A DNA stretch of 64,000 nt from Rhodovastum atsumiense (GTDB lineage Bacteria; Pseudomonadota; Alphaproteobacteria; Acetobacterales; Acetobacteraceae): NCBI RefSeq assembly GCF_937425535.1, contig NZ_OW485601.1:2897501-2961500 (forward strand), read 5' to 3'. The notes below the pieces were generated by a model that saw only the letters and a list, made by a program, of their open reading frames with translations, was not told the origin of the DNA and made no database searches. Position numbers and translations under genes: made by a program. Shown piece by piece: positions 3 through 30,491 of this stretch; position 1 is the stretch's first letter, and each line of letters begins with the position of its first letter.

Positions 3-527
3 ACCGAGATGCTGCGCCAGGTGGAGGAAGGGAGCCTGGATGCGGCGCTGGTGACGTTGCCGGCGCCGATCTCCCGGGCGCTCTGCACGACGGTGGTGGC
101 GACCGACCCGTTGCTGGCGCTGCTGCCGCGTGACCTGGTGCCGCCGGGCCGGGCGGCGCTCTCGGCGACCGAGCTGCTGGGGCTGCCGCTGATCCTTTAT
201 GAGCCGGGCGGCAGCACGCGCGCGATCATCGATGGCTGGTTCCGCCGCGCCGGGCAGGTGCCGCAGCCGGTGATGGAACTGGGCAGCATCGAGGCGATCA
301 AGGTGCTGGTGGGCAACGGAAGCGGCGGTTCGGTGGTGCCGGCGCTGGCCCTGGCCGGCGCGGCGGGCGAGGTGCCGGGGGCGGTCGCCTGCCCGCTGTC
401 GCCGCCGCTGTCGCGCCGGCTGGCCATCGTGCTGCGGCGGGAAAAGGTGCTGGACCGGGTGTTGCGGGCCTTGCTGTCCGGCTTGCAGGCCCATGCCGGG
501 GCAGGGGCGGCGCCGTCGCTTTCGTGA
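3..527 (+). CDS. LysR-family transcriptional regulator, C-terminal part (5' truncated by window)
   Basis: The frame is open from the window edge to the TGA at 525-527, giving about 174 residues. They match the second half of a LysR co-inducer (periplasmic-binding-like) domain: an aspartate/alanine-rich entry (GSLDAALVTLP), a LIL-YEPGGSTR segment typical of the ligand cleft, and IEAIKVLVGNGSGGSVVPALA, the usual hinge-return helix. The N-terminal winged helix lies outside the window, so the regulon cannot be inferred. The gene ends 125 bp before truB and replaces the rbfA that often precedes truB in proteobacteria. Family assignment is firm; function is unknown. Confidence 0.8.
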   Translation, partial: TEMLRQVEEGSLDAALVTLPAPISRALCTTVVATDPLLALLPRDLVPPGRAALSATELLGLPLILYEPGGSTRAIIDGWFRRAGQVPQPVMELGSIEAIKVLVGNGSGGSVVPALALAGAAGEVPGAVACPLSPPLSRRLAIVLRREKVLDRVLRALLSGLQAHAGAGAAPSLS

Positions 528-652
528 TGCCCTGGGCTGCGCTGGCCGGGCGGGCGCCGGGCCTTCCCGGCCTTGTTTTCGCATCCCCGCCGTGGTCTAT
601 GCGCCGCCTTTCCCGCCCCCGCCCTTTTTTTCTGTTCCTGTACAAGAGCCGC

Positions 653-15171: not shown

Positions 15172-16419
15172 TCAGAACAGCTCGATGGCAGGCTCGGCGG
15201 CGCCGGTCTCGCCCGTGCCGAGCGCGCGGGAATGGGCGACGCGCTGCTGCTCCATCACGTAGGACGCGTAGACGCTCTCGATCATGGCCTCGACCAGCGG
15301 CAGTTCCACGCCGGCATTGGGGTTGCAGACCAGCTTCGCCGCCGCCTCGGCGTGATCGCCGAGGCGCGCGATCGCATCGGCGGTATGCTCGAGCTGCTGG
15401 CGCGTCACGTCCTGGAACTGGACGCTCGCGATCGCTTCCAGCAGCAGCTCGCGCATCTGCGCCGCCCGTGCGCGCATGGCCGTGGCGGCTTCGATCTGTG
15501 CCGTCGCGATGCTGCCGACGCCTGTGGCGGTGGCGCCGATCTGGCCGACGATCGCCTCGATCATGGCGCGTTCCTCCTCCGCCTTCTGGACCACGAAGGC
15601 CCGTTGGTCGAGGAACCGTCCGACCAGGGCCTGGACCATGTCGAGATGGTCGCGGATCTGCCCGGAGATCTGTGTCGTGCCGTGGGAGAGCTGGCGCACC
15701 TCGCCGGCCACCACGCCGAAGGCGGCGCCGGCCACGCCGCTGCGATGGGCCTCGATGGCGGCGTTCAGCGCCAGCAGGTTGGTCTGGCGGGCGACGCCCT
15801 CGATCTGGCGCAGCAGGTCGTCGAACCCGCCGAAGGCGGTGACGATCTCGCCGTTCATCCGGTCGGCGTCGGCGGCGGCGGCATCGCGCGCCTGCACATG
15901 CGCGCGCAGCTGGTCGATGACGGCATTGTTGGCCGCCATCCGCTCCTGCACGTCCAGCATCGCCACGTGGGTGGCGGTCTCGGCGGCATTGAGCCGTTGG
16001 ACCAGTTCATAGGCGCTGTCGTCGACGCCCTGCAGCCGGGTCAGGATGTCCATCGCGGCCTGCTCGGTGCAGCCGACGGCGGAGGCGATCTGCTCGCGCA
16101 GCATGGCGGCGTAGCGGGGATACACGGCGATCTGCGCGGCGACCGCGTTGGTATCCGGTGGTGCTGCCTTGGCCGGCGGGGCAGCGGCATCCGGCACGGC
16201 CCTGGTGGCGGTCACCGTCCCGTCCCGCGGCGAGGCCGTGGCCGGGGCCAATGCACGCGCGGCGGCCAGGGAGGCCGCGAAGGAGGACAGCGCCAATGTC
16301 AGCACCGGGAGCCCCAGGCCGCTGCCAACCCCGTACACGGCAAGCGCCAGGGCACTCAGCGCCGAAAGCGTGGCGGCGGTCCGGGGTGGCACACGCAAAA
16401 AGATCGAACCGCCCTGCAT
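15172..16419 (-). CDS. Short membrane methyl-accepting chemotaxis protein, last gene of chemosensory operon
   Basis: 415 residues. Two adjacent hydrophobic segments at about 15-55 form a hairpin in the membrane with no real periplasmic domain, so any signal must be intramembrane or cytoplasmic. The rest is a coiled-coil MCP signalling domain with the tip [34 protein letters not shown]. The tip departs from the usual EAARAGExGxGFAVVA by EAHRSGVAGAAFGVV. The start is 1 bp from the stop of the upstream CheY gene. It should couple to the CheA/CheW of this cluster. Confidence 0.85.
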   Translation of the reverse strand: MQGGSIFLRVPPRTAATLSALSALALAVYGVGSGLGLPVLTLALSSFAASLAAARALAPATASPRDGTVTATRAVPDAAAPPAKAAPPDTNAVAAQIAVYPRYAAMLREQIASAVGCTEQAAMDILTRLQGVDDSAYELVQRLNAAETATHVAMLDVQERMAANNAVIDQLRAHVQARDAAAADADRMNGEIVTAFGGFDDLLRQIEGVARQTNLLALNAAIEAHRSGVAGAAFGVVAGEVRQLSHGTTQISGQIRDHLDMVQALVGRFLDQRAFVVQKAEEERAMIEAIVGQIGATATGVGSIATAQIEAATAMRARAAQMRELLLEAIASVQFQDVTRQQLEHTADAIARLGDHAEAAAKLVCNPNAGVELPLVEAMIESVYASYVMEQQRVAHSRALGTGETGAAEPAIELF

Positions 16420-16420
16420 T

Positions 16421-16789
16421 TCAGGCTCCCGGGATCACCTGCTTGAGCACCTGCAGCAGCTTGTCGGCCGGCACCGGCTTGACCAGCCAGCCGGTGGCGC
16501 CGGCCGCCTTGGCGTCATCGCGTTTCTTCTGCTCGGATTCCGTGGTGAGCAGCAGCATCGGCGTGAACCGGGCATTGGGCAGGCGGCGCGCCTCGCGGAT
16601 CATCTCCACGCCGTTGATGCCGGGCATGTTGTAATCGGTGATGACCAGGGCGAAAGGCTTCGTGCGCATCTGCGTCAGCCCCTCCTCACCGGAAGCGGCC
16701 TTGGTCACGCCATAGCCGCTGCGTTCCAGCACCGAGGCCATGCTCATCAGCAGGGTAGGCGAATCATCGACCAGCAAGACATGCTTCAT
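16421..16789 (-). CDS. CheY-like single-domain response regulator (second of the cluster)
   Basis: 122 residues, a stand-alone receiver without output domain. It has the acidic pair Asp8/Asp9, phospho-acceptor Asp52 (VITDYNMPG), the Thr switch (LLLTTES) and Lys of LVKPVPAD. Its ATG overlaps the STAS gene stop by 4 bp (ATGA). It is likely phosphorylated by the CheA encoded two genes upstream and carries the output or serves as a phosphate sink; which one cannot be told. Confidence 0.92.
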   Translation of the reverse strand: MKHVLLVDDSPTLLMSMASVLERSGYGVTKAASGEEGLTQMRTKPFALVITDYNMPGINGVEMIREARRLPNARFTPMLLLTTESEQKKRDDAKAAGATGWLVKPVPADKLLQVLKQVIPGA

Positions 16790-17049
16790 GGGGTGGATCC
16801 TTCCTGACGGGGTATGGCGGGGGGAAGCTCGGCGCAGAGGCGCGCCACGAAGGGGTCGGTGGCGGCGGCGGCAAGCCGGGGGCGGGCCGCCAGCAGCACC
16901 TGCAGCACGGCGGCATGCAGGTGCCTGCAGCCGGACAGATCGACCGCGGGGGTGGCGGTGCCGCGCACCCAGTCCAGCAGCGGCTCGGCTTCTTCCACGG
17001 TGCAGGTTCCATCCAGCACGGCGAGGTCGCCCTCGATCAGGATCGGCAT
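16786..17049 (-). CDS. STAS-domain protein of chemosensory operon
   Basis: 87 residues matching the STAS (anti-sigma-factor-antagonist) fold: a beta-rich start (ILIEGDLAVLDGTCTVEEAEPLLDWV), then AVDLSGCRHLHAAVLQVLLAARP. At the site where SpoIIAA-like proteins have the phosphorylated Ser (DSSG), this protein reads LHAAV, so regulation by Ser phosphorylation is unlikely. The ATG at 17049 overlaps the cheA stop by one base (TGATG); a GTG one codon earlier is also possible. Position between cheA and cheY indicates a role in the signalling pathway. Confidence 0.75.
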   Translation of the reverse strand: MPILIEGDLAVLDGTCTVEEAEPLLDWVRGTATPAVDLSGCRHLHAAVLQVLLAARPRLAAAATDPFVARLCAELPPAIPRQEGSTP

Positions 17050-19346
17050 CACACCAGCTCCGCGACATCCAGGATCAGCAGCACGCGCCCGTCGCCCAGC
17101 AGCGTGGTGCCGACGAAGCCGCGCAGGCCGGAGAGCATCCCTTCCAGCGGGCGCACGATCGCTTCCATGCGCTCGCGGAAGGCGTCGATGACCAGGCCGA
17201 CGGTGGCCTGTCCCGCGCGCAGCACCAGCACCGGGTCGTCCTCGCGGGCGGCGGCCTGTGGCGCCACCGGCAACTCGAGCAGGTGATCGAGGCGCAGCAG
17301 CGGCACGATGCGGTCACGCAGCACGAAGGCTTCCTGTCCGCGGATGCAGTGCACCGCGCTGGCCGGCAGGCGCACACTCTCGACGACCGTGTTCATCGGG
17401 ATGCCGAACAGGTGGCCGGCGCATTCGATGGTCATGATGCGCGTCACCGCCATGGTCAGCGGCAGCGTCATCCGCACCGTGGTGCCCTGGCCGGGCTTGC
17501 TGGAGAGATCCACCCAGCCCCCCACCTTCTCCACGGTCGAGCGCACCACGTCCATGCCGACGCCGCGGCCGGAGAGGTCGGAGACCTGCTCGGAGGTGGA
17601 GAAGCCGGCGCGGAACACCAGCCGCAGCGCTTCCTCGTCCGGCATGGCCTCGGCCGCCGCGTCGTCGAGCAGGCCGCGCTCCACCGCCTTGCGGCGCACC
17701 CGCTTCGGGTCGATGCCGCGCCCGTCGTCGCTGACCGTCACCACGATGGTTTCGTTCTGCTGCTCGGCGGCCAGCCGCAGCGTGCCATGCGGCTTCTTGC
17801 CGGCGACCATGCGCTCCTCGGCCGATTCCAGGCCATGGTCGAGGCTGTTGCGGATCATGTGCAGCAAGGGATCCGACAGCGCCTCGATCATGTTCTTGTC
17901 GGCCTCGGTCTCCTCGCCTTCCAGCACCACGTCGACCTGCTTGCCGAGCCGGCGCGAGAGGTCGCGCACGAGGCGGGGGAAGCGCTGGAACACGTGGTTG
18001 ACCGGCAGCATGCGGATCGCCATCACCGCGGACTGCATCTCCTCGGCCAGCCGGTGCACCACCGCCTGCTGGTCCTTGATGTCGCGCGCGAGGTCGCGCG
18101 CGCTCGCGCCCGCCTCAGCCTTGCGGGCGAGGTAGGACAGGCTGTTCTTGGCGACGATCAGCTCGCCGACGAGGTTCATCAGCACGTCGATCTTGGACTG
18201 GTCGACCCGCAGGGTTACCGGCGCGCTGCGCAGCTCGGGCGAGGGGGCCGGCGCCTCGGCCGGGTCGGCGGCGACGGCGGTGCCACCGGCGGCGGCAGCA
18301 GCGGCGAGGGGGGGCAGGGGCGGCGGGGCGGCCGGGGCCCGCACCTCGCGCAGCAGCGCCGCGAGCGCTTCCGGATGGCCTTCCGCGGTCTGTCGCACCG
18401 CCGAGCCCAGGGTGGCTTCGTCGAGCGCCCGGCCCAGATGCGTCATCACCCGCCGCAGCAGCATGCCGATCGCGCTGGCACGCCCGGGCAGGCATTCCGG
18501 TTCGCAGGACACGTCCAGAAGATGCAGTTGGCTGGCCAGCACTTCGGTGACGACGCCGGCATCGGGCTGTGGCGCCTGCGACGGGGCGAAGGCGGAGATC
18601 GCCACGTCCTCGCAGTAGCGGAACAGGTGCTGCACGTCCTCGCGCGGGGCGGTGCAGAGCAGGCGGAACGACAGGGCCGAGGCAAAGGCGTCCATCTCGG
18701 CGAGCGCCGGCCAGGCCGGCGGTGGCAACACCTGCAGCGCCACCAGCTCCGGCACCTGGCGCACCAGGTTCAGTGGATCCTCGCCGCGGAAGAAGCATTG
18801 CGCATCGGGGCAGTACTCGACCGCCACCAGGTCGCGATCGACGGCGCGGGCCGCCGCTTCCGCCGTGGCCAGCTCGGCGGGGGGCAGCGTGGCCACCCAG
18901 GCGGGCGGCGCATGCGGCGCGGCGGTGCCGCCGGCGGACGCGGCCGCCGGGCCGTCGCCACCGTCCATCAGCGCGCGAATGGCCTGCGCCCGGGTCGCCG
19001 CCACCTCGGCCGCTTCCGCCGGCAGGTCGCCACCGCTGCGCTCGATCGCCTCCAGCCAGGTCCGGGTCAGGTCGAAGGCGGCCAGCAGCAGGTCCACCAT
19101 GGCCGGCGTGATCGGCCGGCCGGTGCTGCGCAACTGCGCCAGCAGGTCCTCGCCGGCATGCACGAGCGAGGTCAGCGGCGCCATCTCGAACAGGCCGGAC
19201 GTGCCCTTGAGCGTGTGCACGGCCCGGAACAGCGAGTTCATCGCCGCCGCGTCGGCGTGGGCGCGTTCCAGATCCAGCAGGGCCGCGCCGGCGGCGTCCA
19301 GCAGGTCGCGTCCCTCGATCAGGAACTGCTCGAGCAGCGGGTTCAT
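17049..19346 (-). CDS. cheA: Chemotaxis-type histidine kinase CheA
   Basis: 765 residues with the CheA order: Hpt domain with His44 (VHTLKGTSG); a divergent regulatory/P2-like part (about 170-310, with YCPDAQCFFRGEDPLNLVRQVPEL as in many non-flagellar CheA proteins); a Pro/Ala linker; P3 dimerisation (380-445, SKIDVLMNLVGELIVAKN); HATPase with N500 (HMIRNSLDHG), DDGRGID at 540 and GRGVGMDV at 593-600; and a CheW-like P5 domain (635-765). It phosphorylates the two CheY proteins and CheB of the cluster, driven by the MCPs through CheW. It overlaps the upstream cheY by 4 bp. Confidence 0.95.
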   Translation of the reverse strand: MNPLLEQFLIEGRDLLDAAGAALLDLERAHADAAAMNSLFRAVHTLKGTSGLFEMAPLTSLVHAGEDLLAQLRSTGRPITPAMVDLLLAAFDLTRTWLEAIERSGGDLPAEAAEVAATRAQAIRALMDGGDGPAAASAGGTAAPHAPPAWVATLPPAELATAEAAARAVDRDLVAVEYCPDAQCFFRGEDPLNLVRQVPELVALQVLPPPAWPALAEMDAFASALSFRLLCTAPREDVQHLFRYCEDVAISAFAPSQAPQPDAGVVTEVLASQLHLLDVSCEPECLPGRASAIGMLLRRVMTHLGRALDEATLGSAVRQTAEGHPEALAALLREVRAPAAPPPLPPLAAAAAAGGTAVAADPAEAPAPSPELRSAPVTLRVDQSKIDVLMNLVGELIVAKNSLSYLARKAEAGASARDLARDIKDQQAVVHRLAEEMQSAVMAIRMLPVNHVFQRFPRLVRDLSRRLGKQVDVVLEGEETEADKNMIEALSDPLLHMIRNSLDHGLESAEERMVAGKKPHGTLRLAAEQQNETIVVTVSDDGRGIDPKRVRRKAVERGLLDDAAAEAMPDEEALRLVFRAGFSTSEQVSDLSGRGVGMDVVRSTVEKVGGWVDLSSKPGQGTTVRMTLPLTMAVTRIMTIECAGHLFGIPMNTVVESVRLPASAVHCIRGQEAFVLRDRIVPLLRLDHLLELPVAPQAAAREDDPVLVLRAGQATVGLVIDAFRERMEAIVRPLEGMLSGLRGFVGTTLLGDGRVLLILDVAELV

Positions 19347-19720
19347 GCGGGCGGCATCCCAAGCAGCACCCGCACCAGCCCGGACAGGCGCTCCGGACGG
19401 ACGGGCTTGTGGAGATACATGTTGGCGCCGACCGCGTAGGCCTGCGCCGCGTCGGCGGCGGTGCTCTCGGTGCTGATCATCACCGCCGGGATCGCCTGCA
19501 GCTCGGGTTCCTGGCGCACCGCGCGCAGGAAGCCGTAGCCGTCGAGATGCGGCATGTTGACGTCCACCAGCATCAGGTCGGGCGGGTCGCGCAGGGCTTT
19601 CTCCAGCCCCTCGGCGCCGTTCCAGGCCTCGTCCACCTTGCAGCCGATGGCCGTGAGCACGCCCCGATAGAACAATCTGACGGTGGCGGCATCATCCACG
19701 ACGAGAACGCGGGTTCCCAT
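19343..19720 (-). CDS. CheY-like single-domain response regulator (first of the cluster)
   Basis: 125-residue receiver with Asp9/Asp10, phospho-acceptor Asp53 (LVDVNMPHLDG), the switch Ser/Thr region ISTEST and Lys of LHKPVRPE. It lies between cheR (7-bp gap) and cheA (4-bp overlap). Together with the second receiver downstream it gives the operon two single-domain outputs, one on each side of cheA. No DNA-binding or enzymatic domain is attached. Confidence 0.92.
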   Translation of the reverse strand: MGTRVLVVDDAATVRLFYRGVLTAIGCKVDEAWNGAEGLEKALRDPPDLMLVDVNMPHLDGYGFLRAVRQEPELQAIPAVMISTESTAADAAQAYAVGANMYLHKPVRPERLSGLVRVLLGMPPA

Positions 19721-19727
19721 GTTTCCC

Positions 19728-20573
19728 TCACATCGGCCGCTGGTAGACGATCGCGTCCTGGAACTTGCGTACCGTGAACAGCGAGGAGATGCGGCTCATC
19801 GATTCCGAATGCCCGAGACAGACGAACCCGCCCGGCCGCAGCGCCTCGTAGAACGCCTCGGCGGCCCGGCGGCGGGACGCGTCGTCGAAGTAGATCAGCA
19901 GGTTGCGGCAGAAGATCACGTCCATGTCCCGATAGCGCCGCATGTCGGCGGTACAGGTGATGTTGGTCTTGCGGAACTCGACCGAGTTGCGCAGGTCCTC
20001 GACGATCTGCCAACTGGCCTCGCCGGTGCGGGTGAAGTAGCGCATCCGCGCGGCCGGCGAGAGATTCTGCAGCGCCCGTGCGTCGTAGATGCCGCGGCGT
20101 GCGTGCTCGAGAACGCGCGTGTCGATGTCGGAGGCGAGGATGCGGATGTCCCAGTCGTCCACTTCGTGCCAGTTTTCCAGCATGTACAGCGCGATCGAGT
20201 ACGGCTCCTCGCCGGTGGAGCAGGGTACCGACCAGATCTGCAGCGGTTCCTCGCGCCGGCGGTGATGCGTCACTTCCGGCAGGATTGCGTTCACCAGGCA
20301 GCGGAACTGGTATTCCTCGCGGTAGAAATACGTCTCGTTCACCGTCATGGTGTTGATCAGGTTCTGCAGTTCCTCGGCTCTGGGATCGAAGAAGCGCAGC
20401 GCCGTCATGTAGTCGGCGAAGGAGCCGGTTTTGGTGGTGACGATGCGGTCGGCGAGGCGACGGTCGACGAAATAGCGCTTGGTGTCACCGAAGACGATTC
20501 CGGTCTTCTGGTAGAAGAATTCCTGGAAGCGGGCGAACTCGCCGTCGGTGATGACGATGTCGGCCGGATTCAT
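19728..20573 (-). CDS. cheR: Chemotaxis protein methyltransferase CheR
   Basis: 281 residues. S-adenosylmethionine-dependent methyltransferase that methylates glutamates on MCP adaptation helices. It has an N-terminal helical domain and the SAM-binding segment SVPCSTGEEPYSIALYMLE, RILASDID and VIFCRNLLIYFDD. The ATG at 20573 overlaps the HEAT-protein stop by 4 bp and gives the start MNPADIVITDGEF; a start 8 codons earlier is possible but lies deep in the upstream gene. No TPR tail or pentapeptide-binding extension is seen. Confidence 0.93.
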   Translation of the reverse strand: MNPADIVITDGEFARFQEFFYQKTGIVFGDTKRYFVDRRLADRIVTTKTGSFADYMTALRFFDPRAEELQNLINTMTVNETYFYREEYQFRCLVNAILPEVTHHRRREEPLQIWSVPCSTGEEPYSIALYMLENWHEVDDWDIRILASDIDTRVLEHARRGIYDARALQNLSPAARMRYFTRTGEASWQIVEDLRNSVEFRKTNITCTADMRRYRDMDVIFCRNLLIYFDDASRRRAAEAFYEALRPGGFVCLGHSESMSRISSLFTVRKFQDAIVYQRPM

Positions 20574-21292: not shown

Positions 21293-22360
21293 TCACATCC
21301 TCATCCACTGTGCCAGGTGCGCGGCGATGCGGTCGCAGGCCAGCACCTCGGTGGCGCCACCGCGCCGGATCAGCTCGGCCGGCATGCCGAAGACCGCCGC
21401 GGTCTGCTCCGATTCGGCGATGGTGCGCCCGCCGCGACGGTGCAGCGCCGTCATCGCCTCGGCGCCGTCATTGCCCATGCCGGTCAGCAGCACACCGATC
21501 AGGCGGGCCGGCGGCAGATGCTCCATGGCCGAGGCCACCATCCGGTCGGCACTGGGATGCCATGGGCTCTGGTCGGGCGGCACGGCATTGGCCACGATCC
21601 GCCCCAGCCGGCGCTCGATCACCACGTCGGATTCGCCGCGGCCGATGAAGATGGCGCCACCGCGCAGCGGGGTGGGCGCGGCCACTTCCTGTACCGGCAG
21701 CACGCACAGCCCGTCCATCCGCCGCGCCAGCGATCCGGTGAAGCTCGCCGGCATGTGCTGCGCGATCACCACGGCATAGGGGAAGCCTTCCGGCAGGTCG
21801 GGCAGGATGTCCTCGAGCGCCCGCGGGCCGCCGGTGGAAACGCCGATCAGCACCACTCCGGCCAGGTCGCGCGGCGATTGCAGGGCGGCACGGTGGCGCG
21901 CGGACACCGCGGTGCGCTCGGCACGCAGCGATTCTTCCAGGCGCATCGGCCGCAGCCTGGCACGCGCGGCGGTCCGCACCTTGGCCAGCAGTTCGGTCCG
22001 CACCCGGTCGATGCCGGAAGAGACCGTACCGTCGGGCTTGAGCACCACGTCGACCGCCCCGAGTGCCAGTGCCCGCACGGTGACTTCGGCGCCATCGGCG
22101 GTGAGGGAGGAGACCATCACCACCGGGCGCGGCGCCTCGCGCATCAGCCGGCGCAGGCAGGTCAGGCCGTCCATCTCCGGCATGTTGACGTCGAGCGTGA
22201 CCACCTGCGGGTTGAACACGCGGATCTGTTCGAGCGCCTCATGCCCGTTGCGCGCGTGCTGGACGACGACGTCGCCCGCGGATTCCAGCATCTGGCGAAG
22301 CTGGCGCCGCATCAGCGCGGAGTCGTCAACCACGAGGACGCGCAGGGGAGAGCCCGGCAT
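21293..22360 (-). CDS. cheB: Protein-glutamate methylesterase/glutaminase CheB
   Basis: 355 residues. The N-terminal receiver has Asp12/Asp13 and phospho-acceptor Asp57 (TLDVNMPEMDG). The C-terminal methylesterase has the catalytic triad Ser175 (GVSTGGP), His202 (AQHMPASFT) and Asp298 (GMGNDGAEAM). It removes methyl groups from MCPs when phosphorylated by CheA, opposing CheR. It starts 18 bp after the triple-CheW gene and is followed by the only sizeable gap within the operon (93 bp, with a direct repeat). Confidence 0.95.
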   Translation of the reverse strand: MPGSPLRVLVVDDSALMRRQLRQMLESAGDVVVQHARNGHEALEQIRVFNPQVVTLDVNMPEMDGLTCLRRLMREAPRPVVMVSSLTADGAEVTVRALALGAVDVVLKPDGTVSSGIDRVRTELLAKVRTAARARLRPMRLEESLRAERTAVSARHRAALQSPRDLAGVVLIGVSTGGPRALEDILPDLPEGFPYAVVIAQHMPASFTGSLARRMDGLCVLPVQEVAAPTPLRGGAIFIGRGESDVVIERRLGRIVANAVPPDQSPWHPSADRMVASAMEHLPPARLIGVLLTGMGNDGAEAMTALHRRGGRTIAESEQTAAVFGMPAELIRRGGATEVLACDRIAAHLAQWMRM

Positions 22361-22378: not shown

Positions 22379-23902
22379 TCAGAGCGCTTCGACCGAGCGC
22401 TGCTCGTCCACGCTGAGCAGCCGTTCCGGCTGCAGCAGCAGGAGCATGCGCTTCTGGCGCTCGAGATTGGCGACGCGGTCGATCAGCAGGCGCTGCTGTT
22501 CGGAGAGATGCGGCGCCGGGCCGATCGTGCTGCGCGGCACCTTCAGCACCTCCACCACGCTGTCGACGATGAAGCCGGTCCTTGCGTGCCCCACCATCAG
22601 CACCATGATGCGCTGGCGATCGTTGCGGGCCATGTCCGGCAGGGCGAAGCGGCGGCGCTGGTCGACCACCGGCAACACTACCCCGCGCAGGTTGACCACG
22701 CCTTCCATGAAATCGGGCGTGCGCGGCACGCGGGTGAGCTCGTCCGGGACCCGCACGATCTCCTGCACCGCGCCGATCGGCACGCCGTATTCCTCGTTGC
22801 TGAGCCGGAAGACGACGAACTGTTCTTCCTCGTCGACCGCCTCGGTCTCTGCCTGTGCCACCCTGCCATCTCCCTCCGCCTGCACGGTCGCCGCTTCTGC
22901 GGCGATGCCCGAGAAATCCGCGCCCGCGAACATCTTCTGCGCCGAGAGGATGGTGACCAGGCGCCGCCCATCCTCGAGCCGGCAGATCGATTCAAGATCG
23001 GCCGCATGCCCGCTCCTGGACAGCAGCGGCGGCACCGCGTCCACCAGGGACAGCGAAACCCGCAGCACTTCCTTGACGGCATCCATGACGATGCCGACCG
23101 AGGCGATCTCTTCGCCCCCCCGGTTGCGTCCGACCGAGACAACGACGATGCGGTTGTGCTCGGCCAGGGCCGGCTGCGGCATGCCGAACATGCTGCGCAG
23201 CGACACCAGCGGCAGCAGGCGGTTGCGCAGCGTCATCACGCCGATCACGTGCACGTCGCTGCGCGGCACCATGCTGATGCGCGGTGGCACCTGCACGATT
23301 TCCTGCACGTCGGCGATCGGGAAGGCGTATTCCTGGCCGGCCACCTCGAAGGAGACCAGTTGCAGCTCGCGATCGGTGCGCGTGACGGCTGCCGTGGCCG
23401 TGCCTTGCGCGACTTCCGTGGCGGCGGCGCCGCCAGTCTGGCGGCGCTCGGTCTGCAGCGCACCGCGCACCCCCAGGCTTGCGGGATCGAGCAGCATGAT
23501 CATGCGCTGGTCGCGCTTGATCATGCCCTGCAGCAGGTCGGAGGAGACGGCGCTGCCGATCGCCTCGGCCGGCTCGATCTCGTCGCCCTCCGGGCTGATC
23601 ACGCTGGCCATGCGGTCCACGACGAAGCCCGAGAGGGCCCCGCGGTTGAGCACGACGACGCGGGTGGCGTCGTTGTGCTCGGCCTCGGTCATGCCGAACA
23701 GGCGGCGCAGGCTGGTGACGGGCAGGACGGCCCCGCGCAGGTTGGCGATCCCTTCCAGACTGGAAGGTGCCATCGGCACGTGGACCACCCCGGGCATGCG
23801 GATGATCTCCTGCACCTCGGCGAGGGGAACGCCGAACATTTCGCCATCGACCCAGAAGGTGACGAACTGCCGGCCGGCGGTCGTGGTCAACGCTTCGCTC
23901 AT
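22379..23902 (-). CDS. Triple CheW-domain coupling protein
   Basis: 507 residues consisting of three complete CheW domains in tandem: about 11-142 (QFVTFWVDGEMFGVPLAEVQEI), 179-322 (QLVSFEVAGQEYAFPIADVQEI) and 359-497 (QFVVFRLSNEEYGVPIGAVQEI), joined by Ala/Thr/Glu-rich linkers. Each has the beta-barrel signature ending in NLRG/TLRN-x-LLPVxxLRxxFG (PVVDQRRRFA in the third). CheW couples MCPs to CheA; normal CheW has one domain of about 150 residues. The ATG at 23902 starts MSEALTTT; the frame upstream is a shadow of other sequence. The three domains differ enough that duplication is not recent. Confidence 0.93.
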   Translation of the reverse strand: MSEALTTTAGRQFVTFWVDGEMFGVPLAEVQEIIRMPGVVHVPMAPSSLEGIANLRGAVLPVTSLRRLFGMTEAEHNDATRVVVLNRGALSGFVVDRMASVISPEGDEIEPAEAIGSAVSSDLLQGMIKRDQRMIMLLDPASLGVRGALQTERRQTGGAAATEVAQGTATAAVTRTDRELQLVSFEVAGQEYAFPIADVQEIVQVPPRISMVPRSDVHVIGVMTLRNRLLPLVSLRSMFGMPQPALAEHNRIVVVSVGRNRGGEEIASVGIVMDAVKEVLRVSLSLVDAVPPLLSRSGHAADLESICRLEDGRRLVTILSAQKMFAGADFSGIAAEAATVQAEGDGRVAQAETEAVDEEEQFVVFRLSNEEYGVPIGAVQEIVRVPDELTRVPRTPDFMEGVVNLRGVVLPVVDQRRRFALPDMARNDRQRIMVLMVGHARTGFIVDSVVEVLKVPRSTIGPAPHLSEQQRLLIDRVANLERQKRMLLLLQPERLLSVDEQRSVEAL

Positions 23903-23957
23903 GAGATGAAATCCCGTGTCGGATCGCGGCCTGGCGCCGCGCCCTGCTCGCGTTGCC

Positions 23958-25904
23958 TCACGATTCGCTGTTCTGGATCTCGTCGGCGAGCGAGGCGATC
24001 TCCTCGACGGCGGCGGCCAGTTCCTCGGCACCCTTGGCCTGCTCGCGCGTGGCCTGGGCGGCCTGGGATGCCGACTGGCTGGCCTGGGTGGCGGCGGCCG
24101 AGATCTGCTCGACCCCCTTCTTCGCTTCCGCCAGCGCGGCCAGGATCTCGGCGGAGCCCGTCGCGATCTCCCGGTTGCCATCCAGGATGATTACCATGTC
24201 GGCGGCCATGGTGGTGAGGTTGGTGGTAATCGACTTGTTGCGCTCGACCTCGGCGCTGGCAGCGGTGGCGATCTCTTCAAGGTCGCGGCGCACGCGCACG
24301 ATCTGGTCCTGTACCGACTTCACCAGATCCTTGATCCGCTCGGCATTTTCCGAGGAATCGCGGGCAAGGTTGCGGATATCGGTGGAGACCACCATGAAGC
24401 CCTTGCCGTACTCGCCGGCGCGCGCCGCCTCGATGCTGCCGTTCACCGCCAGCATGTTGGTCTGGATGGAGACAGTGGTGATGGCATCGACGATCTTGTC
24501 GATGCGCCGGGCCATCTGGTCGAGCCCGTTGATCTGCTCGCGCGAGGCGGCGCTGGCCGCGACCGATTGCTCCACGCCGGCGATCATCTCGTCGACCCTG
24601 GCGCGGTTGTCGCGCAGCGCCTCGGCCATGGCCGTTCCCTTTTCCATGGCGGCTTCGGCGCGGGTGTTGGCGATCTGGGCGCCGCGCTCGATCTGTGTGA
24701 TCGCGGCGGCGGACTGGGTGGTGGCGGCGGATTGCTGCTGGGCGCCGCGGTTGATCTGCTCGATCGCCGCCATGATCTGGGTGGCGGCGCGGTTGATTTC
24801 CTCGACGGCGGCCGACAGCTCCTCGGCCGCGGCGGCGACCTCTTCCGCGCTCTTGGCGATGCTGGTGCTGTTGCGCAGTTCCTCGGCCAGTTCGGACAAC
24901 TCGGTCGCGGCCTGCTCGCTCTGGGTCAGCGCGTTGCTCTGCTGCTCGACGGTGCGCAGCGCTTCCTGGCAGGCGGCGGACTGTTCCTCGGCGGCGGCGG
25001 CGACGGCTTCCGATCCCTTCTGCGCCTCGGTGGCGGCACGCGCGGATTCCTCGGAGGCGGAGAGGATATCGCGGGCGCCGCGCAGGATCTCCGCCATGTC
25101 GGTGCGCACGACTTCAAGCTGGGCGGTGACGACGCGGCCCTTCTCGACCTCGGCGCCGGTCGCCGCAGCGGATTTGTTGATGCCGTCGGAGATGGTGGTG
25201 ACCTCGCGCTGGATCTCGGCAACGAGGGTCTGGATGTCGCGTGCGCTCTTTTCCGAGGTCTCGGCGAGGGTGCGCACCTCGTCGGCGACCACGGCGAAGC
25301 CCTTGCCGTGCTGGCCGGCACGCGCCGCCTCGATGGCGGCGTTCAGGGCGAGCAGGTTGGTCTGGTCGGCGATGCGGGCGACCGCCTTGACGATCTCGCC
25401 GATATTGGCGGCCTGCTTTTCCAGCTCGGCGACCATGGCGACGGAGGCGATCTGCCGCTCGGCGGCGCGGCCGATGCTGGCGAGGCTCGCGGTGATCTGG
25501 CCGTTGACGCTGGCAACCAGGGTCTGCAGGGAATCGGTCTTGCTCTGCGACAGCTCGGCGTTATCGCGGGAGCGGCCGATGCTGATGCCGATGCGGCGCA
25601 CCGCCTGCATGGACTCTTCGGCGGCCCCGGACGCTTCCTCGGCGCCGGCGCTGATCTGCTCCATCGAGCGGCGCAGTTCTTCGGCCGCGGAGCTGGCCTC
25701 GCTGATGCCGCTGGAGACCTGCGTGGTGGCGGAAGCGACGCGCTCGGCGGCTTTCTGCTGACGCGCGAAGGTGCGGACAGGGCGGCGCTGGGCGGCCTTC
25801 GCGTTTGCGGTCTGGGATTTCGCAAGCGATTCGCCCGCACTCGGCGGGGCAACCGCCACATGCTTCGTGCCGTCGCGCAATTCGGAGGACTTCACCAGGG
25901 CCAT
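23958..25904 (-). CDS. Soluble MCP with two tandem signalling hairpins, first gene of chemosensory operon
   Basis: 648 residues, no membrane segment and no recognisable sensor domain: nearly the whole protein is Ala/Glu-rich coiled coil. Two separate MCP hairpin tips are present, [20 protein letters not shown] beginning at residue 181 (then [14 protein letters not shown]) and [20 protein letters not shown] beginning at 481 (then [14 protein letters not shown]), exactly 300 residues apart. Each lies in the middle of an up-and-down helical hairpin of about 300 residues, so the chain is two MCP cytoplasmic domains fused head to tail. The N-terminal ~50 residues are basic. The C-terminus ends IQNSES, without a CheR/CheB-docking pentapeptide. 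It resembles FrzCD-like cytoplasmic receptors only in lacking a membrane anchor. Confidence 0.92.
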
Positions 25905-26148
25905 GGGACCTGCTTTCGCATTGAACTGACAGAAATTCGCACAACCGTAGATTGTCAGTCAACTATAAGTAATGTTGGATTTGTTGTAGTTTTTTATCGA
26001 ATTCGACTTCGATTTTATCGAAATCTGCAGAAATACCTGCGGTAATTTCGCGAGAATTTTGCATGCACGCCGGCGCATTGATGGTATGCGCCGGTATCGT
26101 CCGTGCCGCCCTTGGGCGGACGGGGCGCCACCACGAGAGGCCGGTGGT
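25905..26148 (-). promoter_or_regulatory. AT-rich promoter region of chemosensory operon with direct repeats
   Basis: The 244-bp gap ahead of the first chemosensory gene is strikingly AT-rich. TTTTATCGAA occurs at 25992-26001 and 26013-26022, 21 bp apart, so both copies face the same side of the helix; ATCGAA-TTCGAT inverted arms lie across the first copy and the spacer. A 7-bp inverted pair ACTGACA/TGTCAGT lies closer to the gene. No clean sigma-70 pair was recognised. The lysR gene beyond is transcribed in the same direction and ends here. Confidence 0.5.
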
Positions 26149-27084
26149 TCATGGCCGTCTGGTGGGCGTGGCGGGGCGGCTGTCCCGGAAGTCCGTATAG
26201 ATATCGGGGAAGCCATCGTGGATCGTGCCGGCGAGTTCCTCGTTGAACGCCTGGAGCGCCAATGCCACGCTGCTTCTGGGGGTCTTGTGCGTGATCTTGT
26301 AGAAGACGCGCTCCGGCGGAGCGGGGTCGATCTGGAAGGTCTCGAAGCGGCCCGTTGCCAGCATGGCGTGGGCAATGCCGCGGGGGACGACCGCCCATTG
26401 TTCCTTGTGCTCGATGACCGCGAACAAGATGAGCGGATTGTCCACGGTCGCCCAGGGCTTCTTGCCGGAATGGAACCAGTAGTCGTGCCAGGCCAGGTAG
26501 CTGGTGCCCCAGGGAACGAGGATGCAGTGCTCCGGGTCGAGTGAACGGACATCGACCTTTCTTGCGCCGCCCTGGCGGATGCGCACGCCGATGAGCGGCA
26601 CGGAGAAGCACGGCGACACCGCGACGCTCTGCGCCGTCTGCTCGACCAGCGAGAAGCCCACATCGATGGTGCGCTTCTCGATCTCCTCGTACATTTCCAC
26701 GGAGTGAAGCGAAATTGTGCGATAGCTCAGGCGGGGCTTGCGGTTCCAGAGGCGTCGGCACAATTCGGGAATGAAGGTCATGTTGGCGCTGGGAACGGTG
26801 CCGATGACGATGTGCTGGCGTGGCTGGGCCCAACTGACCTCATGGGCTTCGCGCAACAATTCCTGCCAGCGTTCCGCGATCGGCAGGAAGGCCTCGCCCT
26901 GGGGCGTCAACTCCACCTTCTTGAGTCCCTTGCCCCTTTCCAGAAGGTGATAGCCCAACTTTTCTTCCAGCATCTGCAGTCGCTTGCTGATGGTGGACTG
27001 GGAAAGATGTGTCACTTCGGCGGCACGGGACAGGTTCCGGTGGCGTGCCAATTGAAGAAATATCTCAATGTCCTGGGACTGCAC
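26149..27084 (-). CDS. LysR-family transcriptional regulator of the hydroxyacid cluster
   Basis: 311 residues. The N-terminal winged helix is clear (IEIFLQLARHRNLSRAAEVTHLSQSTISKRLQMLEEKLGYHLLERGKG), followed by a co-inducer domain with VIGTVPSANMTFIPELCRRL. It is divergent from a D-2-hydroxyacid dehydrogenase gene over a 258-bp AT-rich gap containing a LysR-type T-N11-A palindrome, the classic arrangement for regulating the neighbour. The inducer is probably the cluster substrate or an intermediate, unknown. Confidence 0.9.
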   Translation of the reverse strand: MQSQDIEIFLQLARHRNLSRAAEVTHLSQSTISKRLQMLEEKLGYHLLERGKGLKKVELTPQGEAFLPIAERWQELLREAHEVSWAQPRQHIVIGTVPSANMTFIPELCRRLWNRKPRLSYRTISLHSVEMYEEIEKRTIDVGFSLVEQTAQSVAVSPCFSVPLIGVRIRQGGARKVDVRSLDPEHCILVPWGTSYLAWHDYWFHSGKKPWATVDNPLILFAVIEHKEQWAVVPRGIAHAMLATGRFETFQIDPAPPERVFYKITHKTPRSSVALALQAFNEELAGTIHDGFPDIYTDFRDSRPATPTRRP

Positions 27085-27110
27085 GGCTGAGCTCCTTGTT
27101 GGTCCAAAAA

Positions 27111-27129
27111 ATATTCTATTTTGGAATAT
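27111..27129. promoter_or_regulatory. Candidate LysR binding box
   Basis: ATATTC (27111-27116) and GAATAT (27124-27129) are inverted arms around 7 bp, fitting the T-N11-A core of LysR-type sites. The box lies 27-45 bp ahead of the lysR ATG and about 215 bp ahead of the divergent dehydrogenase, in AT-rich DNA with further poorly matched inverted copies (about 27117-27142). Confidence 0.55.
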
Positions 27130-27342
27130 ATATAATTCAAAATAATCATTTTTGTAATATTAACTCGCATGGCATGGTGGCCCGCGAGATGATGCGAATT
27201 CGTGATGAAAGGCGCAATGCTGCGGGAATTAATCGATCGTGCCGGTTCCGCAGTCGCCCGGCGACCAGCGCAGTGAGCAAATTGAAATATAGAGATATCG
27301 AATAATCAACATCAAATCAAGTCGAATAGCGCATCATCGAAA

Positions 27343-28317
27343 ATGCCCCGGTGCCACAGAATCATCGCTTCGGAGAAGACATTGCAGGTCATACTGACGG
27401 AACCCATCCATCCGGTCCCCCTGGCCAGGCTGCGCGAGGCGGCGGAGGTGGTGGCCTGGGACGATCCGCGATCCGCCGACTGGTCGCACGCTGACGCGAT
27501 CATCGTGCGCGCGGCCCCGGTGACCCGCGCCCGGATCTCGTCCGCACGACGGCTCAAGGTCATCGGCAAGCACGGCATCGGGGTCAATGCCATCGATGTG
27601 CAGGCCGCCCGGGAACACGGAGTGCAGGTGGTGTACACGCCCACCGCCAACGTCAATTCCGTGGCCGAACTCATCGTGGGCTTCATGCTCGCCCTGATGC
27701 GCAAGCTGCCCGACAATATGCGCATGCTGCGCGCCGGCGCAGCCCGCATTTCCCCCACGGAACTCACCGGGACGGAACTGGGCGGAAAAACCCTCGGGCT
27801 GGTGGGGCTCGGCAGAATCTCGCAACGTGTCGCGGAGATCTGCCGCTTTGGCTTCGGCATGGAGGTGGTGGGGTATGATCCCTTCCTGCCTGCGGATCGT
27901 TTTGCCGAGCTGGGCATCGTCCATCATGCGACGCTGGACGCGCTGCTCGCGGCATCGGACGTGGTCAGCGTCAGCGTGCCTTACACGCCGCAGACCCGTC
28001 ATCTCATTGGTGAAGCCCAGCTCCGGCTCTGCCGTCCCGGGGCGCTGCTCATCAATACCGCGCGCGGTGGTGTCGTCGACGAAATCGCGCTGGCAGATGC
28101 CCTGCGTCGCGGCCTGTTGGCAGGGGCTGCCTGCGATGTCTTTGAGACGGAGCCGCCGCCCCCGCAACATCCTTTGCTTGCGCTTCCAAATTTTCTCGGC
28201 TCGCTCCACGTGGGGGCGTCCACCAACGAAGCGCTGCTGCGGGTGGGCAACACCGTGGTGAGCGACGTGCTGGCAGTGCTGCGCGGTGAAAAACCCGAAT
28301 TTCCCTACCTGTCGTGA
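27343..28317 (+). CDS. D-2-hydroxyacid dehydrogenase family protein (phosphoglycerate-dehydrogenase-like)
   Basis: 324 residues (from the ATG) of the NAD-dependent 2-hydroxyacid dehydrogenase family. Visible are VIGKHGIGVNAIDVQAA, ANVNSVAELIVGFMLALMR, the nucleotide-binding LGLVGLGRISQRVAE, catalytic Arg in NTARGGVVDE, Glu in CDVFETEPPP and His in SLHVGAST. The third glycine of GxGxxG is Ser (GLGRIS), which is unusual. Two starts compete: ATG 27343 with no ribosome-binding site, and TTG 27382 with GGAG 6 bp upstream, which gives LQVILTEPIHP and may be the real start. First gene of a cluster with an RraA-like enzyme and a permease. Confidence 0.85.
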   Translation: MPRCHRIIASEKTLQVILTEPIHPVPLARLREAAEVVAWDDPRSADWSHADAIIVRAAPVTRARISSARRLKVIGKHGIGVNAIDVQAAREHGVQVVYTPTANVNSVAELIVGFMLALMRKLPDNMRMLRAGAARISPTELTGTELGGKTLGLVGLGRISQRVAEICRFGFGMEVVGYDPFLPADRFAELGIVHHATLDALLAASDVVSVSVPYTPQTRHLIGEAQLRLCRPGALLINTARGGVVDEIALADALRRGLLAGAACDVFETEPPPPQHPLLALPNFLGSLHVGASTNEALLRVGNTVVSDVLAVLRGEKPEFPYLS

Positions 28318-28383
28318 GGCCGCCACGGGCCGGAAGCAGACCGGCCATCACAGGCAATGCCAATCCATCCGTGGAGTGAAACC

Positions 28384-29082
28384 ATGTCCCTTCCTGGAAA
28401 CCGGATCTTCACCCGGCTCAACCGTCCTGATCCCGAGCTCATCGAGGCTTTCCGCGGGCAGGCCACGCCCAATATCGCGGACAACATGTCGCGCATGTTC
28501 TGCGCCTGCAGCGCCATCAGCCCGGTGCGCCCGGACATGAAGCTCTGCGGTCCCGCCTTCACCGTCAAGGTCAATCCCGGGGACAACCTCTTCATTCACA
28601 AGGCGCTGGACCTGGCCCGGCCCGGCGACATCGTGGTGGTGGACGGCCAGGGAGACCTGACCAACGCGCTGATCGGAGAGATCATGGTGCGCTACGCCGC
28701 CCGGCGGGGCATCGGCGGACTGGTGCTCGACGGCACGGTGCGGGACTACGACGGCATCCTTGCCTTCGGCACGCTGCCTGTGTTCTCGCGCGGATATACG
28801 CCGATGGGGCCTTACAAGAACGGGTGCGGGGAAATCAACACGGTGATCGCCTGTGGCGGAGCCGTGGTGCGTCCCGGCGACATCGTGGTGGGTGACGCCG
28901 ACGGCGTGGTCTTCGTTCCCCAGAAGGACGCGAGGGAGGTGCTGGCGGCCACCCAGGCCATTTCAGCCAGGGAGAAGCAGATTTTCGTCGACATCGAGGC
29001 CGGTTGCTATGACCGCGCCTGGGTTGACGCCAAGCTTCGCCAGACGGGCGCGGAAATCATCGACGACACCTGCCAGTTCTGA
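28384..29082 (+). CDS. RraA-family protein (aldolase/oxaloacetate decarboxylase-like)
   Basis: 232 residues of the RraA/HMG-aldolase fold: TPNIADNMSRM, LCGPAFTVKVNPGDNLFIHKALDLARPGDIVVVDGQGD, GGLVLDGTVRDYDGI (the metal-binding and substrate Arg/Asp region) and VRPGDIVVGDADGVVFVPQ. Enzyme members cleave 4-hydroxy-4-methyl-2-oxoglutarate or 4-carboxy-4-hydroxy-2-oxoadipate, or decarboxylate oxaloacetate, with divalent metal. The ATG at 28384 has GTGGAG 7 bp upstream; an ATG nine codons earlier lacks one. Between a 2-hydroxyacid dehydrogenase and a carboxylate permease, an aldolase/decarboxylase role is more likely than RNase E inhibition. Confidence 0.85.
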   Translation: MSLPGNRIFTRLNRPDPELIEAFRGQATPNIADNMSRMFCACSAISPVRPDMKLCGPAFTVKVNPGDNLFIHKALDLARPGDIVVVDGQGDLTNALIGEIMVRYAARRGIGGLVLDGTVRDYDGILAFGTLPVFSRGYTPMGPYKNGCGEINTVIACGGAVVRPGDIVVGDADGVVFVPQKDAREVLAATQAISAREKQIFVDIEAGCYDRAWVDAKLRQTGAEIIDDTCQF

Positions 29083-29108
29083 ACAGGGTTTGACGGATTG
29101 TGGTCGTT

Positions 29109-29136
29109 ACCTGTCTGACCTGTCTGTGCGACAGGT
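29109..29136 (+). repeat. 9-bp tandem repeat and hairpin between rraA-like gene and permease
   Basis: ACCTGTCTG is repeated twice head to tail (29109-29117, 29118-29126). The second copy forms ACCTGTC (29118-29124) with GACAGGT (29130-29136) around TGTGC. It may be an attenuator or mRNA-stability element ahead of the permease gene. Confidence 0.55.
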
Positions 29137-29165
29137 GACGGCCGCCCGGCCCAGGATGCACCATC

Positions 29166-30491
29166 ATGGAACAAGCCGTTACCTACGCAGCGCGTTTTGA
29201 GTCCGAGGCCACCCCCCGCCGTGTGCGTGAGGCCAAGAAGGCGACTGTCGCGGCCTCTTTCGGAACTTTCCTGGAATACTATGATTTCAGTTGCTACGGC
29301 TACGTGGCGGCCATGCTCGCCACCGCCTTCTTCCCCGGCGACAACCCCACGGCTTCCTTGCTCTCCACGCTCGCGGTCTTCGGCAGCGCCTTCATCGTCC
29401 GGCCGCTGGGCGGCATCCTCTTCGGCCATATCGGGGATCGCTACGGTCGCAAGACGGCCCTGCTGGCGACGGTGCTGCTGATGGGTCTTGCCAGTACCGG
29501 CATCGGCCTGCTGCCCACCTACGCCTCCATTGGCGTGGCCGCGCCAGCGCTCCTGATCACCCTGCGACTGCTCCAGGGACTCTCCGCCGGCGGCGAGATC
29601 GGCGGTGCGGCGTCCTATATCCGGGAATGGGCCCCACCTAACCGGCGCGCATTGTACATCTCCTTCATTCCGGGCATCGCCGTGCTGGGCAAGGCCACGG
29701 CCGCCGGGCTGGCGGGCATGGCGGCCGCGTTGTTTGCCACGAGCGCCCCCGACTGGGCCTGGCGCGTGCCCTTCCTGGTCGCGCTGCCGCTGATGCTGGG
29801 CTGCCTGTGGATCCGGCTGCGGATCGAGGACAGCCCTGAATTCGAGCATCTGCGCAACACCGGCGGGCTGGCCAAGGCGCCCTTCGCGGAACTCTTCAAG
29901 GCTTATCCGGGGTCGCTGTTCAAGCTGATGATGTTCGCGATGGTGCAGACCATCGGAACCTATATCGGCACGGTGTACGTGGCCGTGTACATGAAGACGG
30001 TGCTCCGGATCCCGCAGTCGCAGGTGGGCTTCATTGTGCTCATCGCCGTCACCTGCGCAGCGGTGCTCATTCCCGTGTTCGGATTTGTCACGGACCGTCT
30101 CGGGGCAAAGCGGACGCTTGCGATATCCTACAGTCTCTACATCGCGCTCAGCTATCCGATGTATGCCATGATGGGGCCGGAGTCCTTTAATCTCACCGTG
30201 CTCGCCCTGGTGGTGACCATGCTGCCCTATACCATGTGCCAGGCGGGGTCCTATCTGATGTATCCCGAACTTCTGCCGACCCGGGTGCGCAGCACCGGCG
30301 TCTCCTTCGGGCACAGCTTCGGATCGGTGATCGGGGGAGGACTCATGCCCTTCCTGGCCACGATGCTCATCGATTCCTTCGGTGACATCATGATCCCGAC
30401 TTACATGCTCATGGCCAACGGCATGTTGGGATTGGTCATGATCCTTTGCGTCCGGGACGCCTTGCCCGGCGACGCCCGCAAGTATCGCTGA
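29166..30491 (+). CDS. MFS transporter, metabolite:H+ symporter (MHS) family
   Basis: 441 residues, 12 membrane helices. It has the MHS start AASFGTFLEYYDFSCYGYVA, the MFS motif GHIGDRYGRKTALLATVLLMG and the family GLSAGGEIGGAASYIREWAP (ProP/KgtP/ShiA-like GxxxGGExxGAxxYxxE). These carriers import small carboxylates, betaines or shikimate with protons. In this cluster it likely imports the hydroxyacid handled by the preceding two enzymes; the actual substrate is not readable from sequence. Confidence 0.9.
   Translation: MEQAVTYAARFESEATPRRVREAKKATVAASFGTFLEYYDFSCYGYVAAMLATAFFPGDNPTASLLSTLAVFGSAFIVRPLGGILFGHIGDRYGRKTALLATVLLMGLASTGIGLLPTYASIGVAAPALLITLRLLQGLSAGGEIGGAASYIREWAPPNRRALYISFIPGIAVLGKATAAGLAGMAAALFATSAPDWAWRVPFLVALPLMLGCLWIRLRIEDSPEFEHLRNTGGLAKAPFAELFKAYPGSLFKLMMFAMVQTIGTYIGTVYVAVYMKTVLRIPQSQVGFIVLIAVTCAAVLIPVFGFVTDRLGAKRTLAISYSLYIALSYPMYAMMGPESFNLTVLALVVTMLPYTMCQAGSYLMYPELLPTRVRSTGVSFGHSFGSVIGGGLMPFLATMLIDSFGDIMIPTYMLMANGMLGLVMILCVRDALPGDARKYR

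Follow-up and report, generated by a model that had tools for sequence, protein, structure and literature searches.

A 64,000-nucleotide stretch of the Rhodovastum atsumiense genome (contig NZ_OW485601.1, positions 2,897,501 to 2,961,500; the window) carries on its minus strand, at 23958..25904, a gene for a soluble receptor of 648 aa. This receptor has two signalling hairpins of the methyl-accepting chemotaxis protein (MCP) type in one chain. Going by the genes alone, it is a DosM, and the cytoplasmic F9 chemosensory system to which it belongs is complete. Structure prediction and covariation statistics support a pairing of hairpin 1 with hairpin 2 and a hinge between them at residues 345–352 (24849..24872, minus strand). 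We put the probability that a chain folded back at this hinge is the DosM arrangement within the F9 system at roughly 60%.

That the 648-residue protein is a genuine double-tipped receptor is seen from its open reading frame (ORF), its Pfam matches, an AlphaFold2 model and 141 homologous ORFs. PF00015 matches it in two stretches (protein E 1.8e-59, best stretch 149–302). Tip 1 starts at residue 181 and tip 2 at residue 481, exactly 300 residues apart. The first has the canonical sequence (residues 181–211, 25272..25364, minus strand), while the second carries M484, V487, G489, D509 and I510, all fixed in the family (residues 481–511, 24372..24464, minus strand). A sequence-only reading of the window had described two MCP hairpins in one soluble chain with tips at 181 and 481, without sensor domain or membrane helix, and had proposed to count the PF00015 hits per protein. 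The two stretches found bear this description out and set the chain apart from an ordinary MCP, which has one hairpin per chain. Pfam gives no family besides PF00015 at E 0.001, and no sensor domain was found. The protein also appears to lack a membrane helix, judging by eye from the sequence and from the all-helical model.

Receptors of this type are known from the literature. The F9 class was described by a receptor with two tandem signalling domains and a concatenated triple CheW (PMC9321776), and the double-tipped F9 receptor was named DosM in Vibrio cholerae (PMC7534058, PMC9321776). We rejected the idea of a new kind of receptor, since DosM and F9 had already been described there. According to the same work, F9 clusters across 2781 species are full in 64 and partial in 8, and 98% of DosM homologues have no sensor domain beyond the two signalling domains (PMC9321776). 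Natural 'soluble single-chain' MCPs had been pointed out in Rhodospirillum centenum and other microbes in 2015 (PMC4692393). The window agrees with this class: the receptor has tandem signalling domains and, as in the DosM family, no extra sensor domain; a 507-aa CheW chain contains three PF01584 stretches; and the cluster has its own cheA, cheY, cheB and cheR. With its own CheA, CheY, CheB and CheR, the cluster is a full and not a partial F9 set.

Searches with the window protein at a cut-off of E 1e-40 found DosM in 39 of 397 genomes of its own family (own genome included). Outside the family, DosM was found in 10 of 398 genomes of the phylum (own genome and one partial match included), in 39 of 298 genomes of another family of the same class, and in two other orders (2 of 345 and 3 of 48 genomes, the latter with one partial match). 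When named genomes were scanned with the second half of DosM as query, 285 relatives appeared, not all of which are necessarily DosM. Going by their titles, the 80 loci that were kept belong to alpha-, beta-, gamma- and deltaproteobacteria, Acidobacteria, Holophagaceae, Actinoplanes, Dactylosporangium and Lutispora. The double-tipped architecture is old, and full-length relatives from several phyla share it.

The constancy of the double form was followed in 141 ORFs of at least 500 aa that matched the window protein with a score of 250 bits or more (loci L032–L186, with L145–L148 of the own genome excluded). These were left after 13 of 154 phmmer hits below 250 bits had been dropped, one at 68 and twelve below 60. 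The distance from tip to tip is 300 in 133 of the full-length relatives and 298 to 304 in the remaining 8. A relative with one hairpin could hardly pass the length and score cuts, so that the presence of both tips in 141/141 is partly due to selection; the result shows the constancy of the double form and not its frequency among relatives. The constant spacing and the fixed residues are not products of the selection cut.

The two tips differ from each other at fixed positions, counted in an alignment of the 141 relatives that was made without tip patterns. Tip 1 has L184 (140/141), L187 and A189 (141/141 each), E209 (138/141) and V210 (140/141), whereas the corresponding set in tip 2 consists of M484 (141/141), V487 (138/141), G489 (141/141), D509 (139/141) and I510 (141/141); S490 is kept in 115 relatives. 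Just ahead of the tips, residue 180 is Asp in 138/141, and its counterpart 480 is Ile or Val in 137/141. The changes that had been noted in tip 2 of the window protein are therefore largely a family trait. The exception is M504 (in 'MVVSTDI'), which is no family feature: position 504 is A in 74, V in 34 and M in 17 of 130 rows, which here, as in the covariation, hinge and heptad analyses below, were picked by tip patterns. Among the 30 best of the 69 MCP matches in the own genome, examined with a single search pattern, 28 tips read LLALNATIEA, and the other two are the tips of DosM. A small tree was built from the hairpins of 24 sampled DosM proteins, all with a spacing of 300, together with 26 ordinary MCPs from the own genome. 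In it, second hairpins (support 0.996), MCPs (1.0) and first hairpins (only 0.48) each form one group. Together with the fixed differences, this grouping indicates that the specialised halves suspected from the single sequence hold for the DosM family.

The arrangement of the two hairpins was examined in predicted structures. AlphaFold2, run on the window DosM as a single chain with 71 sequences, gave a model with a mean predicted local distance difference test score (pLDDT) of 92.6 and a predicted template modelling score (pTM) of 0.74. It contains helices at 30–195, 197–345 and 349–647, with a break between the hairpins at 346–348. The topology was read from structural alignments and not from coordinates, with unrelated helical bundles used for topology, not for kinship. 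A designed single-chain four-helix bundle aligns with the model over 190 residues (root-mean-square deviation, rmsd, 2.0) within 132..563, a range that begins some 65 residues ahead of the tip 1 apex and ends some 65 past the tip 2 apex. Such a match would hardly be possible if both tips did not lie at the same end. Residues 345–648 overlay 304 of 307 residues of the Thermotoga maritima signalling domain 2ch7_B (rmsd 2.6); the second half of DosM thus resembles nearly the whole of this domain, although 2ch7 has one hairpin per chain. A homologue from Methylotuvimicrobium buryatense was modelled with its sole break at 329–332 (pLDDT 91.0, pTM 0.66), the same place as the hinge of the window DosM. 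Its alignment comprised 37 sequences, counting the homologue and the window protein, and none with an altered hinge length. Compact single-chain bundles match this second model over a tip-symmetric range (rmsd 5.4 to 6.0 in the top six rows).

The hinge also stands out in the alignments. Among 129 sequences aligned to the window DosM, insertions or deletions (indels) affect residues 347–353 in 8 sequences and a site elsewhere in 60–646 in only 1. The branch with variable hinges (L037, L126, L127, L138, L140, L141, L142 and L143) has several Gly-rich ones, while the commonest residues at 345–348 in hinges without indels are N (73), S (89), T (87) and D (78 of 130 rows). Counted modulo 7, the hydrophobic core lies at residues 0 and 4 in the first hairpin and at 3 and 6 in the second, a skip of about one residue in the heptad register at the hinge. 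Indels, Gly-rich hinges and a heptad skip would not be expected in a continuous coiled-coil rod, and because of this hinge evidence we favour folding back.

Covariation was analysed by a ridge method in 130 rows, with an effective number of about 74. Among the top-L pairs, 27 join the two hairpins at one level (i+j = 696 ± 6), where 11.3 would be expected, and this band is the best of 280 overlapping windows (peak 692–696). The positive control, pairs within a hairpin, gave 20 against 11.6. In the main hinge group of 97 sequences, the values were 24 against 10.9 for same-level pairs and 25 against 11.1 for the control. After mispairing of the halves, 0 to 2 same-level pairs remained in five shuffles; as a shuffle strips all signal between the halves, it is a poorer control than comparing the overlapping windows with one another. 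A first look by mutual information at 105 rows had shown the strongest signal between the hairpins at offset 300, whereas in the later ridge analysis i+j = 696 is the strong class and offset 300 is hardly visible. Covariation thus ties hairpin 1 to hairpin 2 at matching levels, with a strength equal to that of the positive control.

Several observations weigh against a folded-back chain. The covariation set is small and the same-level enrichment modest (2.4-fold), the second hinge group of 33 sequences shows none (8 against 11.6, with a control that is also flat, 10 against 11.7), and in the parallel-offset class (d = 300) the mean is raised, though the top pairs barely are (14 against 11.7). 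All eight sequences with hinge indels come from the own family, where they form one branch and are not independent, and outside this branch the hinge length is constant. The second model is weaker, both in its pTM (0.66) and in its looser bundle matches (rmsd 5.4–6.0). AlphaFold2 run on a single chain can fulfil contacts that really are between chains. Finally, the published model shows DosM as an extended rod whose two tips lie at opposite ends, and cryo-tomography of V. cholerae favours this rod (PMC7534058).

The next best explanation is a rod that would give the same contacts in another way, namely an antiparallel, strand-swapped dimer in which extended chains lie head to tail and tip 1 and tip 2 meet at both ends. 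We consider it unlikely, though by no means negligible. Its contacts between hairpins 1 and 2 are those of the folded-back chain, which accounts for the covariation, and fixed tip differences suit it as well. It would also retain the published rod across both plates (PMC7534058), and single-chain Tsr is known to swap strands in Escherichia coli (PMC4692393). The difficulty lies at the centre of the rod, where a stiff helix is expected to be continuous: both models break there, the heptad register skips by about one residue, and indels occur, with Gly-rich hinges in one branch of the family. The intramolecular four-helix bundle suggested by the sequence-only reading, a covalent pseudo-dimer akin to the natural soluble single-chain MCPs of PMC4692393, stands only in part: the pairing of hairpins 1 and 2 is supported by the AlphaFold2 break and bundle matches, the indels, the heptad skip and covariation, but the antiparallel rod dimer places the same contacts between chains.

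A parallel rod dimer, with like tips together so that the tip 1s lie at one plate and the tip 2s at the other and the plates differ, is the simplest reading of the published V. cholerae rod (PMC7534058), and different tips could mark different plates. Under this model, hairpins 1 and 2 should not touch at matching levels, yet the covariation of such pairs equals that of the within-hairpin control. Both the models and the covariation set the hairpins side by side, an arrangement shared by the folded-back chain and the swapped antiparallel rod. These data disfavour the parallel rod dimer, and we regard it as improbable. An assembly duplication, a frameshift or a degenerate second copy has next to no chance and was excluded, as the 300-residue spacing, both tip sequences and the operon around them are conserved across phyla, and the layout with clearly different halves recurs in 141 ORFs of other loci.

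The distance between the plates is of little help here. Helices rise by about 0.15 nm per residue, so that a rod with 300 residues between its tips is expected to measure about 45 nm from tip to tip. The plate spacing in V. cholerae is 35 nm (PMC3964821, PMC7184735). Since folded-back layers placed base to base equal the rod in length, the spacing does not discriminate between them.

In the folded-back arrangement that we prefer, the chain would turn at 345–352 and one chain would make one receptor unit, the partner hairpin being supplied by the same chain. With the hairpins paired and their tips level, the unit would be a four-helix bundle of the canonical tip 1 and the variant tip 2. This DosM unit would be asymmetric, as opposed to the symmetric homodimer of ordinary MCPs. 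Two layers of such units could then stack base to base between two plates of CheA and triple CheW. In ordinary receptor trimers, identical subunits differ by their place, at the axis or at the CheA/CheW-binding periphery (PMC4692393). The two tips of DosM may split this labour between the trimer axis and the side that faces CheA and CheW, and tip 2, hydrophobic at 480 where tip 1 has Asp (180), would be the one suited to the axis. For this comparison, Tsr residue numbers are taken to correspond to DosM positions. Of the tip residues that face the trimer axis, the papers yielded only Tsr I377, at which substitution by Pro blocks trimer formation (PMC4692393), and because it is the only one, the division of labour is something we infer. 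A stricter version of the proposal is an obligately asymmetric DosM, in which hairpin 1 always pairs with hairpin 2, tip 2 turns to the trimer axis and tip 1 to CheA/CheW, and the F9 sandwich is held by base-to-base contacts of folded-back molecules or by strand swapping rather than by a parallel rod with different tips at its two plates. We offer this version tentatively, at somewhat less than even odds.

If this were true, the two subunit roles, which are hard to study apart in ordinary receptor trimers, would be written into the two halves of one chain, where each could be mutated separately. It also bears on what holds the F9 sandwich arrays together, a rare signalling lattice that is free of membrane. 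For simple cross-links, the published rod in its parallel form predicts the opposite of what follows from the pairing described here. Both the topological evidence and the fixed tip asymmetry may be new; neither is stated in the F9 and DosM literature searched, which excluded the primary DosM and the 2010 F-class papers, and we do not claim that they are unpublished.

The window receptor resembles several known systems. Like V. cholerae DosM (VC1403, F9 or cluster I), it is a soluble chain with two signalling domains beside a triple CheW (PMC7534058, PMC9321776). Compared by description, it would differ from the published VC1403 rod with tips at its ends, as the window hairpins appear to lie side by side. 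Two covalently joined hairpins that can work as one receptor also occur in engineered constructs, namely single-chain Tsr~Tsr and a single-chain Tar that is soluble (PMC4692393). These are two copies of one receptor, however, and single-chain Tsr needs a connection of at least 22 residues for near-normal function (PMC4692393), whereas DosM has a joint of few residues, no HAMP or membrane part, and halves that differ at fixed positions. The Che2 system of R. centenum is likewise of the F9 class with a triple CheW (PMC7184735, PMC2890560). It includes two additional small proteins, unknown in function (PMC2890560), and its genome encodes a soluble single-chain MCP (PMC4692393). A receiver domain is part of CheA in Che2 (PMC2890560), while Pfam finds none in the CheA of the window. 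Deletions in Che2, which is placed in F9 by PMC7184735 and is the closest case with a tested output, changed flagellation and left taxis intact (PMC2890560). By analogy, the output of the window system is most likely a control of flagellar synthesis. The input of DosM must, as argued in PMC9321776, come from other receptors. Candidate sources would be the MCP of the operon and the other receptors of the genome, and CheB and CheR of the operon may tune DosM by methylation.

The operon lies on the minus strand in the order DosM, triple CheW, CheB, HEAT-repeat protein, CheR, CheY, CheA, STAS-like protein, CheY and MCP. The gene of the triple CheW (cheW3, 22379..23902), whose start at 23902 is a presumed one, is followed by cheB with receiver and methylesterase domains (21293..22360), the HEAT-repeat gene (PF13646, 20570..21199) and cheR (19728..20573, start likewise presumed). 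Then come the first cheY (19343..19720) and cheA, which encodes Hpt, dimerisation, ATPase and CheW-like domains (17049..19346). These assignments were made by Pfam, as was that of the second cheY (16421..16789). The small STAS-like protein between cheA and the second cheY (16786..17049) matches PF13466 at E 1.5e-4 and 22.3 bits, below the curated cut-off of 29.2. The last gene (15172..16419) encodes an MCP with one PF00015 stretch and a hydrophobic N-terminus, in which membrane helices were recognised by eye.

This order was compared in the 64 of the 80 loci that had at least 9.5 kb downstream of DosM. CheB was found there in 63, CheR in 62, CheY in 61 and CheA in 63 of the 64, a second CheY in 58 and a single-domain MCP in 46. 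CheW3 adjoins DosM in 56 loci under a strict overlap rule; 7 of the 8 loci that fail the rule have CheW3 directly after DosM, and L070 has it before. The HEAT protein occurs in 59/64 and the STAS-like protein (by phmmer) in 61/64, and both are conserved parts of F9 operons. A search of the F9 literature for 'HEAT repeat' and 'STAS domain' found neither phrase in the F9 papers returned. At L064 and at L110, in two named genomes, two DosM/CheW3 sets lie near each other. In the own genome, of 7.4 Mb on 9 contigs, there are 69 matches to PF00015 and 4 each to the CheA dimerisation domain and to flagellin, so that the F9 system stands among several chemosensory systems of a bacterium that encodes flagellins.

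A few smaller features of the region deserve mention. NCBIfam gave no DosM model for the 648-aa protein, and its matches lie far below their cut-offs, which may be why DosM looks like an odd MCP. At its N-terminus, DosM starts with MALVK (25890..25904, minus strand) ahead of some 30 residues that appear disordered; pLDDT falls below 50 only at residues 1–32. The motif M.{0,3}[LIVM][VIL]K, to be compared with this start, is present in 84 of 131 homologous ORFs examined and may serve for tethering or docking. Scanned for promoters, the region upstream of dosM yielded a single weak site on the plus strand and none on the minus strand. Two antisense ORFs on the plus strand, 23916–26045 (709 aa) and 23953–25761 (602 aa), overlap dosM and seem to be a side effect of a coding strand rich in GC and in Ala codons; the AT skew is about -0.35 across 24000–25499. 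Adjoining the operon, at 26149–30491, are genes for a LysR regulator, a 2-hydroxyacid dehydrogenase, an RraA-like protein and an MFS transporter, together resembling a catabolic set of the ordinary kind.
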